Below, one piece after another: positions 18,046 through 31,671 of a DNA stretch of 47,107 nt (the stretch's first letter is position 1; every line of letters begins with the position of its first letter). The stretch spans positions 1-47,107 of IMG/VR virus record IMGVR_UViG_3300013285_000023; one strand, given 5' to 3'. The notes beneath the pieces were generated by a model. The model ran no database searches and had not been told where the DNA came from. It saw only the letters and a program-made list of their open reading frames with translations. This DNA is from a virus. Made by a program: the position numbers and the translations under genes.

Positions 18046-18954
18046 TTAAGCGTTCTTAGCAAGAGATACTTGATTAGTACCTGTAGCCGCACTCAATGTC
18101 CACCCTGCTACTAGATCAGTAATAAGTGCTGTACTTGTGTTTGTTCTATTAATTAACGTTGCTTTGTGCGCTGTTAATTTAGTAACATAATAGGTAGCAC
18201 CGCCGCCGTCTGTAGCAATAATGTGAGCTTGACCAGGTACTAATGTATGAGTTGCACCGGTGCCAGCCCCAATTCTTACCTGTCCAATACCTTGACTGTT
18301 ACGTACTAGATAACGACGTGAGCTTTCTTGCTTGATGATATCTCCGCCGCTGATTGCTGAACTGCCAGTTGTTATATAAGATGTGATTGCAATAGCATCT
18401 TGTGTTGTTGTAGTTGCGAACAATGCAATTGAGTTAGCCTGAGCCGATCCTGCATCGACAAACGCAATTGATGCATTGACTGTACCTGCATTTGGCCATG
18501 TTAAGTTAACAGCACCACTTACAACAGACGTAACAAAAGTAGCACTGGCATTAATGTTAACACCAATAACCTTCATACCTACATAGATTCCGGTAGTACT
18601 TGCTGGATAGATAATTGATTGGCCAGTTGTACCAGTAGATGCACTAGCAACTCCAGTGGCTGTAGTTACTGTTAGTGTTGGAGCACTTGTATAACCAGTA
18701 CCGCGTTCAGTAAATGTAACACCACGTAGTAAACCGTTAGTGTCAATAACTGGTGTGCCTGTTGCTCGAATACCACCAGCAACGTTTGGAACACCAAAAC
18801 TTACTGTTGTTCCTTGTGAATATAGTGTACCGCTGTTTGAAAATGTAACACTTGCTACACCTTCACCACCTACACCAGTATTGCCACCTCTTGCGTAATT
18901 TGTATACGGACGGTTTTTGTTACCGAAATATTTTTCTTTAATTGGACGTCCCAT
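18046..18954 (-). CDS. Virion-type protein downstream of the capsid gene, 302 aa
   Basis: A 302-residue protein beginning MGRPIKEKYFGNKN, an opening I associate with a conserved family of structural proteins of unknown function in aquatic T4-like phages. It has Gly/Thr/Ser-rich beta repeats (GEGVASVTFSNSGTLY, RGVTFTERGTGYTSAPTLT). A segment near residue 213 (KQESSRRYLVRNSQGIGQVRI) may be the conserved core. The gene has its own perfect late promoter (TATAAATA), a long leader and a strong terminator, so it is an independent and probably highly expressed transcription unit right after gp23. A capsid decoration or surface protein would fit, but this is inference. Confidence 0.65.
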   Translation of the reverse strand: MGRPIKEKYFGNKNRPYTNYARGGNTGVGGEGVASVTFSNSGTLYSQGTTVSFGVPNVAGGIRATGTPVIDTNGLLRGVTFTERGTGYTSAPTLTVTTATGVASASTGTTGQSIIYPASTTGIYVGMKVIGVNINASATFVTSVVSGAVNLTWPNAGTVNASIAFVDAGSAQANSIALFATTTTQDAIAITSYITTGSSAISGGDIIKQESSRRYLVRNSQGIGQVRIGAGTGATHTLVPGQAHIIATDGGGATYYVTKLTAHKATLINRTNTSTALITDLVAGWTLSAATGTNQVSLAKNA

Positions 18955-19041
18955 TTTATTTTCTCCTTAAGAATAATAGCGTTCTAGGCTATACGCGGTT
19001 GGATTTCCGCATAAAATTCACCCTATGTAAATCGTACTGTG

Positions 19042-29515: not shown

Positions 29516-29728
29516 ATGACTATCGACGAGATAGTTGAACTTGCTAAACGCATGGAGCAAGAGACAAAGGCCATAAAGCAAGAACTCTATAAGTTTTGTT
29601 GGTACATGCGAGGAGGGCTTTCTTTTACAGAAGCCTACGAACTCGACATTGGAGATCGTGAGATACTGGGTAAGATTATTGAAGAAAATCTAGATACAAC
29701 TAAGAAAACTCAGTTGCCGTTTTTTTAA
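29516..29728 (+). CDS. Small tail-assembly protein, read alone or as the -1 frameshift extension of the gp26-like gene
   Basis: A 70-residue protein from the ATG at 29516 (AAGG 9 nt upstream); a TTG six bases earlier is possible. It has an N-terminal helix (TIDEIVELAKRMEQETKAIK), then WYMRGGLSFTEAY, then ILGKIIEENLDTTKKTQLPF. This compact pattern is known to me from small proteins beside tail genes in T4-like phages. It could be made separately or fused to the upstream protein by the slippery site at 29492-29498. Its last four bases overlap the stop of the convergent 284-aa gene. Confidence 0.65.
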   Translation: MTIDEIVELAKRMEQETKAIKQELYKFCWYMRGGLSFTEAYELDIGDREILGKIIEENLDTTKKTQLPFF

Positions 29729-30579
29729 ATCAATGTCTTAAAAAATTTACTATAGAATTGTGTGCTCTCGGCCATTGCTTTCGAAGCGGCTCTTGCGGCA
29801 CGTTTACGCATTGCATTCGGAGTTTGACTTACTTGTCCTGGTACTTTACCGCCACGAGCTGTTGGAGCCGCTGTAGGTTGAGCACCCGGTGTCATTGATC
29901 CAGGAACTTGCATTGGTTTCATAGGCATAGCGGTACCTTTTCCAAAACTTGGTGCATTTGGATTTCCTGGTTTAGCAGTATTTGTTTTACTAACAGGAGC
30001 ATTTGCCATTGTGTTAGCAGGAGGCGCTGCCGGAGCAGGAGTTCCTGTTAGTGTGTTGGCCATTTGACTCATTGCACCTGCGCCAGGATCGGGTGCTTTT
30101 TGTTTTTTGGCTAATGTAGCATCTAATGTTTTCTTAACACTTGCTAAATCTCTTGTTCTTAGGGTAGGAAGGATCTTGTTAATTTGACCTACGCCAATTT
30201 TACTTTGTTGTGCTTGAGCGGCACCGCCTGCGGCCGGATCATCAGATGCACCTGCTGACACTCCACCTTGTACCGGAGCACTGGCTTGTCCACTACCTTG
30301 TTGTGTTGGATCACCTGCTTGTTGAGCACCACCTTGTGCCTGGACAGGAGCACCCGCTTGTGCTGGTTGTTCATCAGGACCACCACCAATAGTATCAGCG
30401 GCTCTATTATAGCCTTTTCCAATTGCTCGAGCAATACCTGCTGGTACACCTGCTACAGCACCGATCCCTTGACCAACTGCGCCAAGTCCTTTACCAACAG
30501 CGGCACCTGCCCCACGAACTTTATCCCATACGGGTCCTTCTTCAAGATTTTCTGTTAAAAATAAATCGTCGATGCGCAT
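29725..30579 (-). CDS. Ala/Gly/Pro/Gln-rich low-complexity protein, 284 aa
   Basis: A 284-residue protein with an ordered N-terminal head (MRIDDLFLTENLEEGPVWDK) and a glycine-alanine amphipathic segment (GKGLGAVGQGIGAVAGVPAG, about 30-50). A long Gln/Ala/Gly/Pro-rich region follows (about 60-260), with a more ordered insert (KIGVGQINKILPTLRTRDLA, about 127-146), and a basic C-terminus (NAMRKRAARAASKAM). It has a perfect late promoter (TATAAATA at 30605-30612), so it is expressed with virion proteins. Function unknown; an internal head protein, an ejected protein or a disordered linker are all possible. It is convergent with the frameshift pair, overlapping by 4 nt. Confidence 0.6.
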   Translation of the reverse strand: MRIDDLFLTENLEEGPVWDKVRGAGAAVGKGLGAVGQGIGAVAGVPAGIARAIGKGYNRAADTIGGGPDEQPAQAGAPVQAQGGAQQAGDPTQQGSGQASAPVQGGVSAGASDDPAAGGAAQAQQSKIGVGQINKILPTLRTRDLASVKKTLDATLAKKQKAPDPGAGAMSQMANTLTGTPAPAAPPANTMANAPVSKTNTAKPGNPNAPSFGKGTAMPMKPMQVPGSMTPGAQPTAAPTARGGKVPGQVSQTPNAMRKRAARAASKAMAESTQFYSKFFKTLI

Positions 30580-30604
30580 AACAAGGGATTCCTATTTGAT
30601 GATT

Positions 30605-30612
30605 TATTTATA
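30605..30612 (-). promoter_or_regulatory. Perfect T4-type late promoter (TATAAATA)
   Basis: Exact TATAAATA on the minus strand, 25 nt before the ATG at 30579 and immediately past the terminator that ends the structured region at 30617-31047. ATAGGAA follows as a possible ribosome binding site. Confidence 0.8.
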
Positions 30613-30616
30613 TTTT

Positions 30617-30636
30617 AAAAAGCGAACTACGTTCAC
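30617..30636 (-). terminator. Rho-independent terminator ending the candidate RNA
   Basis: Minus strand GTGAAC, loop GTA, GTTCGC (one G-U pair) followed by TTTTT: a 6-bp stem and U tract. It closes a gene-free stretch, so it most likely ends either a non-coding RNA or the gp55-gp47-gp46 operon transcript. Confidence 0.7.
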
Positions 30637-31047
30637 TTGCTCTTTCGTTTACACTCAGAGCAATTTTAACTACGAAGTAGTTTAAGTATTATCTAGATCG
30701 TTCAGTCACACTTTGCCCGCACAGGGCAAAGATTTGAACATTATCTGAGTCGAACATGTATCACCTAGCGTTAGAGCATTACAGTGGCGGTTGACCGGTA
30801 CCACGAGCTCCGTCTTTATAACAACGGCGGCTTACAAATATACGCTAACATATTTGTAAACGCAGGGTTTTTCTCCCTTCCTTTTGCCTTATCTGCATCT
30901 TCAAACAACTAAATCGCAGGGCTTGGTAGCGATCTTCATCCTTTCGGGTAGTAGTTGAGTACTCACAACGGCGAGAGATTTCCATCCCTGCGACCCAAGG
31001 TCCAGGTTTAGGGCTCCAGAGATTAGCAGGAGCAAGCCATTACCGTT
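30617..31047 (-). ncRNA. Candidate structured non-coding RNA or long structured 3' region, family unknown
   Basis: No gene fits in this ~430-nt stretch. A hand count of 30661-31020 gives about 45% G+C, above the flanking coding DNA by eye. Read on the minus strand it holds, in order, a GCTCC/GGAGC hairpin, a long-range helix TCGCAGGG (30986-30993) with CCCTGCGA (30914-30921), and CC-GAAA-GG. It then holds a perfect 10-bp hairpin (30832-30841 with 30850-30859), an 8-bp hairpin (30711-30718 with 30724-30731), AACTAC/GTAGTT (30668-30682), a 7-bp hairpin (30637-30643 with 30657-30663) and the terminator. It follows the GIY-YIG-like gene, so it could be the 3' end of that mRNA, a processed small RNA or an independent transcript. 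I found no match to tRNA, tmRNA, RNase P RNA or group I/II intron core motifs. Confidence 0.5.
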
Positions 31048-31476
31048 TTAAATTTTAGATTTTATGTGGGAGCCATGGACACGGACCTGTATGTGCCCGT
31101 TATAATAGTTGTCTGATTCTAATACTTTGCGGTCGAATTGTTCGCGGGCCTCAATGTACGATGTTTCTGATTTGCTTTTACAGTAGTGTAATATTTCTCG
31201 AGAGAAGTTTTCTTTGCCTAGATTGTCTATGTCTGCTGTTAAGTTAGGACTGGACCCGTAATATTCCTGCCAATCACTGTCTATTTTGCTTCTAATTTTC
31301 TTTTTCTTCTTGGTGCCGTTCTTCAACTTTACAGTTTTGTAGGTTGTTTTACTAAATTTTGCTAGTTTTTTGCCAATATATTGGCGCCCGGAAATTGTGT
31401 TAGTAATGCAATATACAAAGCCAACACACTCTTCGGGTAATTCATTTATAACTTGTCCTTGATATGTCCAAGTCAA
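31048..31476 (-). CDS. GIY-YIG-like endonuclease-family protein, 142 aa
   Basis: The N-terminal part has the GIY-YIG core: GFVYCITN (first strand), then GRQYIGKK (second strand). A basic insert follows (LKNGTKKKKKIRSK), then a DWQEYYGSS block, and YIEAREQFDRKVLE carries the likely metal-binding Glu. The length suits a stand-alone domain. Family members are homing or repair-type nucleases, but stand-alone copies near gp46/gp47 occur in aquatic T4-like phages and their role is not established. The start appears to be TTG at 31476, the codon immediately after the TAA of the upstream 64-aa gene and in the same frame. No in-frame ATG precedes the GIY motif. Confidence 0.7.
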   Translation of the reverse strand: MTWTYQGQVINELPEECVGFVYCITNTISGRQYIGKKLAKFSKTTYKTVKLKNGTKKKKKIRSKIDSDWQEYYGSSPNLTADIDNLGKENFSREILHYCKSKSETSYIEAREQFDRKVLESDNYYNGHIQVRVHGSHIKSKI

Positions 31477-31671
31477 TTACTTTGCTGCCTTGGCTTCCTT
31501 GCGGGCGTTCTTCTCAGCAGTAATTTCATTACGACGAGCCTTAACCAGTTTGCCTAGTTCTGCTAATGCCTTACGTGATCGTGTGCCAGCGGCACTATTA
31601 CCACCGGTAAACTTAGCATCTTCTGCTAAGAATTCTGCAAATTGTTGTTCTAATTGCTCAGTTATTGTCAT
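31477..31671 (-). CDS. Small basic protein, 64 aa
   Basis: A 64-residue protein with an acidic N-terminal helix (TITEQLEQQFAEFLAEDAKF) and a basic Ala/Lys/Arg-rich C-terminal half (AAGTRSRKALAELGKLVKAR then KNARKEAKAAK) reminiscent of histone-H1-like tails. Short proteins with an AGTR-x-RKAL motif are common in aquatic T4-like phages; DNA or RNA binding is a guess from charge. It overlaps the end of the preceding gene by 14 nt, and its stop abuts the TTG start of the GIY-YIG gene in the same frame. Confidence 0.7.
   Translation of the reverse strand: MTITEQLEQQFAEFLAEDAKFTGGNSAAGTRSRKALAELGKLVKARRNEITAEKNARKEAKAAK

Follow-up and report, generated by a model that had tools for sequence, protein, structure and literature searches.

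A pseudoknotted RNA, about 430 nt long in T4-like phages and also present in bacterial integrative elements, extends the Polynucleobacter-1 motif and carries two matching heptamers

A stretch of DNA between a nuclease gene and a late gene of a T4-like phage encodes a free-standing, ornate non-coding RNA of ~430 nt that probably acts in trans and whose two identical heptamers probably share a partner. The window (the whole stretch of DNA that was analysed) comprises 47,107 nt of viral DNA, IMG/VR record IMGVR_UViG_3300013285_000023. It belongs to a T4-like virus, as gp23, gp20, gp46/gp47-like SbcCD subunits and a late sigma factor were all found; no tRNA genes were found in the window. The order on the minus strand is gp47, gp46, two small genes, a SegE-type GIY-YIG nuclease, the RNA and the late gene, and the RNA, which ends in a 3' hairpin of its own, concludes the gp47-gp46-nuclease region. 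It lies in a 468-nt gap (30580-31047) which, in an open-ended ORF list, is the sole intergenic gap above 300 nt in the window, as the original prediction had stated. RNA positions are numbered such that position p corresponds to window position 31048 - p (position 1 = 31047, position 428 = 30620); the 5' end at ~31047 is a predicted start, set by the first conserved helix. The features of the locus are the following:

29725-30579, minus strand: variable late gene that occupies the slot behind the RNA; the protein has 284 aa and the N-terminus MRIDDLFLTE
30605-30612, minus strand: T4-type late promoter TATAAATA of the next gene
30617-30638, minus strand: terminator-like terminal hairpin (RNA 410-428) with its U tract; changes on both sides in 7/7 counted pairs (helix 18)
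30620-31047, minus strand: whole RNA, 428 nt, defined by end-to-end conservation and an 18-helix covarying structure
30903-31038, minus strand: RF01718 Polynucleobacter-1 part (5' domain), 110.9 bits in cmscan
31048-31476, minus strand: SegE-type GIY-YIG nuclease (PF19835), 142 aa, Pfam 1.3e-33

Across all six frames of 30620-31047 the longest open stretch is 64 codons and indels occur throughout the alignment of relatives, which led us to reject a decayed gene. The G+C content of the RNA stretch (0.451, 92nd percentile of 428-nt stretches) exceeds that of the window (0.383) and of the GIY-YIG gene (0.371) but not that of the gene on the other side (0.478), and the claim that the stretch is richer in G+C than its surroundings is thus correct on one flank and incorrect on the other. 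Single-sequence folding energies show no strand preference (minus strand, z = -2.49; plus strand, z = -2.56); they are suggestive only and not diagnostic, unlike the comparative covariation described below, which is the decisive evidence for the fold.

When the stretch was searched against Rfam at E up to 1, nothing besides RF01718 (Polynucleobacter-1) was returned, with model positions 1-141 of 141 aligned to 136 nt and a score far above the gathering score of 37. The RNA had been described as unidentified; this no longer applies to its 5' third and stands for the remainder, which lies beyond the Rfam model. Polynucleobacter-1 is a motif of unknown function published in 2010 (Weinberg et al., PMC2864571), and our literature search found no other paper that names it. 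Its published distribution table gives Burkholderiales from fresh water or estuary, and T4-like phages and integrative elements are not among the listed carriers (PMC2864571). Scanning IMG/VR with a pattern of the Polynucleobacter-1 core gave at least 119 contigs. Three candidates of the genome scan (L130, L132 and L133) were dropped as chance pattern matches without covariance signal, and no DNA match was found among the cultured phages of INPHARED. Among the matches listed, 54 non-redundant viral loci have enough DNA downstream; in these, similarity to the window copy runs far beyond the Rfam model, reaching the end of the RNA in many of them. The viral RNAs measure 410-485 nt (median 443, among the matches listed).

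The RNA starts ~9 nt before the Rfam model, which adds an arm of pseudoknot 1, and conservation and covariation extend to RNA position 428, past the end of the ~141-nt model. Because covariation continues to position 428 and bacterial members also possess the 3' domain, the Rfam model is partial and covers the 5' domain; the complete RNA is a member of RF01718, three times longer and a larger variant. What it shares with RF01718 is that its 5' 136 nt fit the whole model and that the freshwater and Burkholderiales distribution agrees, whereas the middle domain, the 3' domain, the further pseudoknots and the paired heptamers are all absent from the Rfam model.

The final structure, derived from alignment A2 (54 rows), has 18 helices, 88 pairs and four pseudoknots. 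Its cells are paired in 94.6% of cases, compared with 82.4% in shuffled alignments and 36-43% when the partners are slid, and cells with changes on both sides number 593 (vs 164 shuffled and 53-109 slid). Over the 88 pairs the covariation score is 0.393 (vs 0.05-0.09 slid). Under a tree-based null, significant Watson-Crick pairs were detected along the entire RNA, and an unsupervised stem search recovers the majority of these helices. Except for pseudoknot 2, the pseudoknots are contacts that are long-range or involve a loop (RNA 2-6/76-80, 200-205/278-283 and 223-226/255-258). Pseudoknot 2 is built around the helix formed by RNA 15-19 and 31-35, and helix 3 is paired in 99.6%. The structural features are, from 5' to 3':

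31042-31046, minus strand: pseudoknot 1, 5' arm (RNA 2-6), outside the Rfam model, partner 30968-30972; helix 1, 97.6% of cells paired, changes on both sides in 3/5 pairs
31025-31038, minus strand: pseudoknot 2, RNA 10-12 (31036-31038) with RNA 21-23 (31025-31027)
30968-30972, minus strand: pseudoknot 1, 3' arm, a hairpin loop (RNA 76-80)
30843-30848, minus strand: pseudoknot 3, 5' arm, loop UUAGCG (RNA 200-205); helix 12, 94% paired, changes on both sides in 6/6 pairs
30822-30825, minus strand: pseudoknot 4, 5' arm GUUG (RNA 223-226); helix 13, 97.7% paired, changes on both sides in 2/4 pairs
30790-30793, minus strand: pseudoknot 4, 3' arm CAAC (RNA 255-258)
30765-30770, minus strand: pseudoknot 3, 3' arm (RNA 278-283)
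30711-30731, minus strand: 8-bp hairpin between the heptamers (RNA 317-337; helix 16)
30639-30661, minus strand: 3' hairpin with a GAGC-GNNA-GCGAA top (RNA 387-409); changes on both sides in 5/5 pairs (helix 17)

The original prediction had called for an Rfam covariance search and an alignment of related phage loci. The first matched RF01718 only (110.9 bits, 5' third) and the second revealed base pairs that covary across the full length; none of the findings named as able to overturn the prediction (absent conservation, absent covariation, a decayed gene) was obtained. Likewise, neither Rfam nor ARAGORN found a core of group I or group II introns, RNase P RNA, tRNA or tmRNA, which bears out the earlier failure to match these classes, and the suggestion of a catalytic RNA received no support.

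The RNA starts a few nt past the GIY-YIG stop codon and its upstream neighbourhood is nearly constant in phages. Of the 118 viral loci with upstream sequence among the matches listed, 117 have GIY-YIG as the gene immediately before the RNA, the one exception (L074) having a PDDEXK_15 phage endonuclease in its place, within the 528 nt that precede the RNA; gp46 is upstream on the same strand in 85 of the 87 contigs long enough, again among the matches listed. The RNA is therefore inherited at one phage locus. As nearly every viral locus has a nuclease gene immediately before the RNA, the RNA could be conceived as a guide or cofactor RNA for that nuclease, like the omega RNAs of IscB and TnpB, and it does share with HEARO and the omega RNAs of IscB-type nucleases the location of a structured RNA beside a nuclease gene. 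We nevertheless give this reading hardly any credence: the nuclease is a different one, there is no Rfam match to these RNAs and no variable guide exists at either end. Moreover, the association is not constant in either direction, each partner occurring without the other. SegE-type proteins are common in T4-like phages (the family has 510 INPHARED records), and RF01718 was absent from eight complete phage genomes with a GIY-YIG protein that were picked from these 510; the RNA, in turn, is present in bacteria without the nuclease. On both counts, GIY-YIG was rejected as an obligate partner. Just upstream of the GIY-YIG gene, a 64-aa gene (31477-31671, minus strand) matches the histone H1-like protein Hc1 (PF07432), and homologues of it are found upstream in 33 viral loci among the matches listed.

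At its other end the RNA closes with the hairpin AAGUGAAC-GUA-GUUCGCUU followed by UUU (30638-30617), and a perfect late promoter comes directly after, so that the arrangement originally predicted is confirmed at 30638-30605 (minus strand). A long U tract is often absent after the hairpin in relatives; judging from its sequence, the hairpin presumably acts as a terminator and ends the transcript. The promoter motif TATAAATA has 2 occurrences in the window (vs 6.4 expected by chance), each of them a short distance before a gene, and 35 of 54 relatives among the matches listed have an ATAAATA late-promoter core no more than 70 nt past the RNA 3' end (0.014 expected per locus). The other TATAAATA (19049-19042) is associated with a second known RNA motif, freshwater-2 (RF02980, 70.4 bits; window 18952-19032, minus strand), which begins ~10 nt past it, extends to the start of a 302-aa gene and resembles a 5' leader belonging to a late phage transcript.

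Given that the RNA sits between two genes and so close to the GIY-YIG stop codon, it might function in cis, as a 5' leader of the late gene or as a 3' untranslated region of the GIY-YIG/gp46 operon. This appears very unlikely to us, because the late gene promoter is 3' of the RNA, which hence does not lie between a promoter and a start codon as a riboswitch or 5' leader would, and because what follows downstream in many phages is an unrelated or a convergent gene; the same two observations contradict cis-regulation of the late gene. On the upstream side, GIY-YIG is replaced in L074 and is missing beside the bacterial homologues, where the DUF6641 gene is divergent.

These bacterial homologues were identified with RF01718 in 20 of the 186 genomes searched of the Polynucleobacter-type genus, in 8 of 398 genomes of its family and in 2 of 400 genomes of the Aquabacterium family. 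At the 14 chromosomal loci that were fetched, the RNA measures ~480-560 nt. A DUF6641-type gene (PF20346 for the representative) lies upstream of the RNA in divergent orientation in 14/14 loci, a ~188-aa tyrosine recombinase follows the RNA in 13/14, and an AAA+ protein and a second integrase are encoded beyond in most; thus, the bacterial carriers look like integrative mobile elements of Burkholderiales. A model of the 3' domain built from the viral RNAs alone (R1) matches the RNA in every one of the 14 loci, with E from 2e-13 to 0.012 (weakest in L174), and widens the set to 39 of the 186 genomes of the genus. Many of the loci added by R1 are without the Polynucleobacter-1 domain, and DUF6641 and the small recombinase adjoin all 13 of the 13 fetched. 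The added loci form two further sequence groups (L187-L190, L192 and L197-L199; L191 and L193-L196), both with the same 3' domain, other 5' regions and long conserved sequences. No acceptable Rfam match was obtained for either group, and by sequence they are apparently sister families. None of the element's proteins was found in the viral loci among the matches listed. Altogether, because the RNA keeps to one phage locus and recurs in integrative elements of Burkholderiales, we conclude that it serves mobile elements, both phages and integrative elements, and not one given neighbour gene; from this context we infer that it acts in trans.

The 3' domain common to all these RNAs bears a heptamer in two copies, 52 nt apart, that flank the 8-bp hairpin:

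30740-30746, minus strand: heptamer copy 1, AGAUAAU (RNA 302-308), preceded by an invariant CUC
30688-30694, minus strand: heptamer copy 2, AGAUAAU (RNA 354-360), preceded by an invariant UCU

Among the matches listed, the two copies are identical in 54/54 aligned viral rows, which contain 11 different words, and, located by their anchored context, in 103 of 104 complete viral loci (the exception being L115), against 18% expected from word frequencies. This identity is confined to the heptamer: the letter after it differs between the copies in 51 of 54 rows, and CUC and UCU differ in all. When the changes were mapped by parsimony on a tree of the remaining RNA sequence, 24 were reconstructed for each copy, all on the same branches and with the same bases. 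Bacterial copies obey the same rule with other words (for example AGCGAAA, AACAAAA, AUCAAAA and AGAGAAA), the exceptions being L135, L147 and a related trio, L141, L157 and L168. Gene conversion is disfavoured as the origin of the identity, because the flanking CUC and UCU stay different in every aligned sequence. Neither aligned columns nor unaligned searches pointed to a complement that covaries with the heptamers, be it within the RNA or within 600 nt on either side; the unaligned searches of RNA and flanks showed no enrichment over the words of other lineages, and there is no genome-wide enrichment of the heptamer or of its complement. A G.U-rich match of RNA 140-145 was discarded as a low-complexity coincidence. 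Since the word drifts between lineages yet the copies change together, both heptamers probably contact one co-evolving partner.

The paired identity could also mirror a symmetric interface between copies of the RNA itself, if these oligomerised to a cage or multimer during lysis in an RNA-only assembly as in GOLLD and ROOL, with the heptamers at the subunit interface. The RNA is indeed phage-borne, ornate and pseudoknotted, and no protein accompanies it constantly; homo-oligomers have been described for GOLLD, ROOL and OLE, and the first two, whose function is not known, are likewise large, ornate and pseudoknotted and occur in phages and mobile elements (PMC12286853). Such an assembly nonetheless seems unlikely: there is no covariance match in Rfam to GOLLD, ROOL or OLE, and the identical words are unable to form Watson-Crick pairs with each other. 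This RNA further differs from GOLLD and ROOL in being clearly shorter and in having no tRNA genes in the window around it. By the tests made, it belongs neither to GOLLD, ROOL or OLE nor to the introns or guide RNAs. In favour of an assembly, phage ICP1 has a large and abundant RNA without a known role (PMC7567579). The ~800-nt non-coding RNA of ICP1 and the PLE satellite RNA resemble the present case in that a lytic phage and an integrative element both have large RNAs (PMC7567579), but the RNAs of phages and elements studied here are homologues, and a satellite relation is putative.

The DNA at the 3' end of the RNA forms a hypervariable slot. When bacterial elements are compared in pairs, similarity holds as far as the RNA 3' end, is lost completely after it and returns just before the recombinase gene; the slot is nearly empty in L161 and holds an insert in L173, and the cargo between the RNA 3' end and the small recombinase differs among elements (L161-L174). 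An AbiEi-like protein (L163) was the sole defence match among eight cargo proteins scanned, and a defence function of the cargo genes was rejected. In phages, a same-strand gene is found 16-84 nt past the RNA in 26 of 41 loci with enough downstream DNA, among the matches listed. These slot genes come from many unrelated families; elsewhere the RNA abuts a conserved block on the opposite strand. Nearly all phage slot proteins have an N-terminus of the type M(K/R)IxxLLxE, which we compared with the capsid-targeting sequences of T4 internal proteins (PMC9026906). The MRIDDLFLTE of the late gene in the window resembles a capsid-targeting sequence, and the phage slot proteins may be ejected head proteins.

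A slot of this kind raises the question of whether the element is mainly DNA, that is, a recombination or insertion platform for the 3' gene slot in which the heptamers are matched overlaps. The matching overlaps of tyrosine recombinases are typically ~7 bases, which suits the size of the heptamers, and both the break in bacterial identity at the RNA 3' end, with near-empty and filled sites, and the like behaviour of the viral slot would fit. This reading is nevertheless quite improbable in our view: viral loci encode no such recombinase, the heptamers are merely 52 bp apart, and covariation over 18 helices with pseudoknots is unneeded by a DNA site. Homologous recombination at a conserved sequence explains the slot as well and is its simplest reading; because the RNA gene is the most conserved DNA there, the slot is probably a consequence of recombination at this gene, with a hot spot at that point.

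A phage-encoded structured RNA, as first predicted, is thus strongly supported by full-length conservation, 18 covarying helices, the RNA's own 3' hairpin and its independence of neighbours. For the trans-acting RNA that we favour, we propose that it would be made during infection and persist as a stable RNA, with a structural role or as part of a ribonucleoprotein. Its 5' and middle domains, with their pseudoknots, would form a compact body, and the 3' domain would display the identical heptamers, one before and one after a hairpin, to a partner, which may be a dimeric or bivalent protein or a nucleic acid in trans; the heptamer pair would set a lineage-specific specificity. More tentatively, the 3' domain may be a new RNA recognition module, in which two sites are bound to be identical while the word is free to drift, a lineage tag read twice by one partner. 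As the same module is present in lytic T4-like phages and in integrative elements of their presumed hosts, it could conceivably decide self versus non-self or let the element exploit the phage.

With these results, an orphan Rfam motif of 140 nt becomes a complete ornate RNA of ~430 nt with a tested structure. The identity of its heptamers is a form of covariation that falls outside ordinary Watson-Crick scans. We can now place the RNA in the genomes of T4-like phages and of integrative elements and, apparently, alongside two sister families, so that its function can be tested directly.
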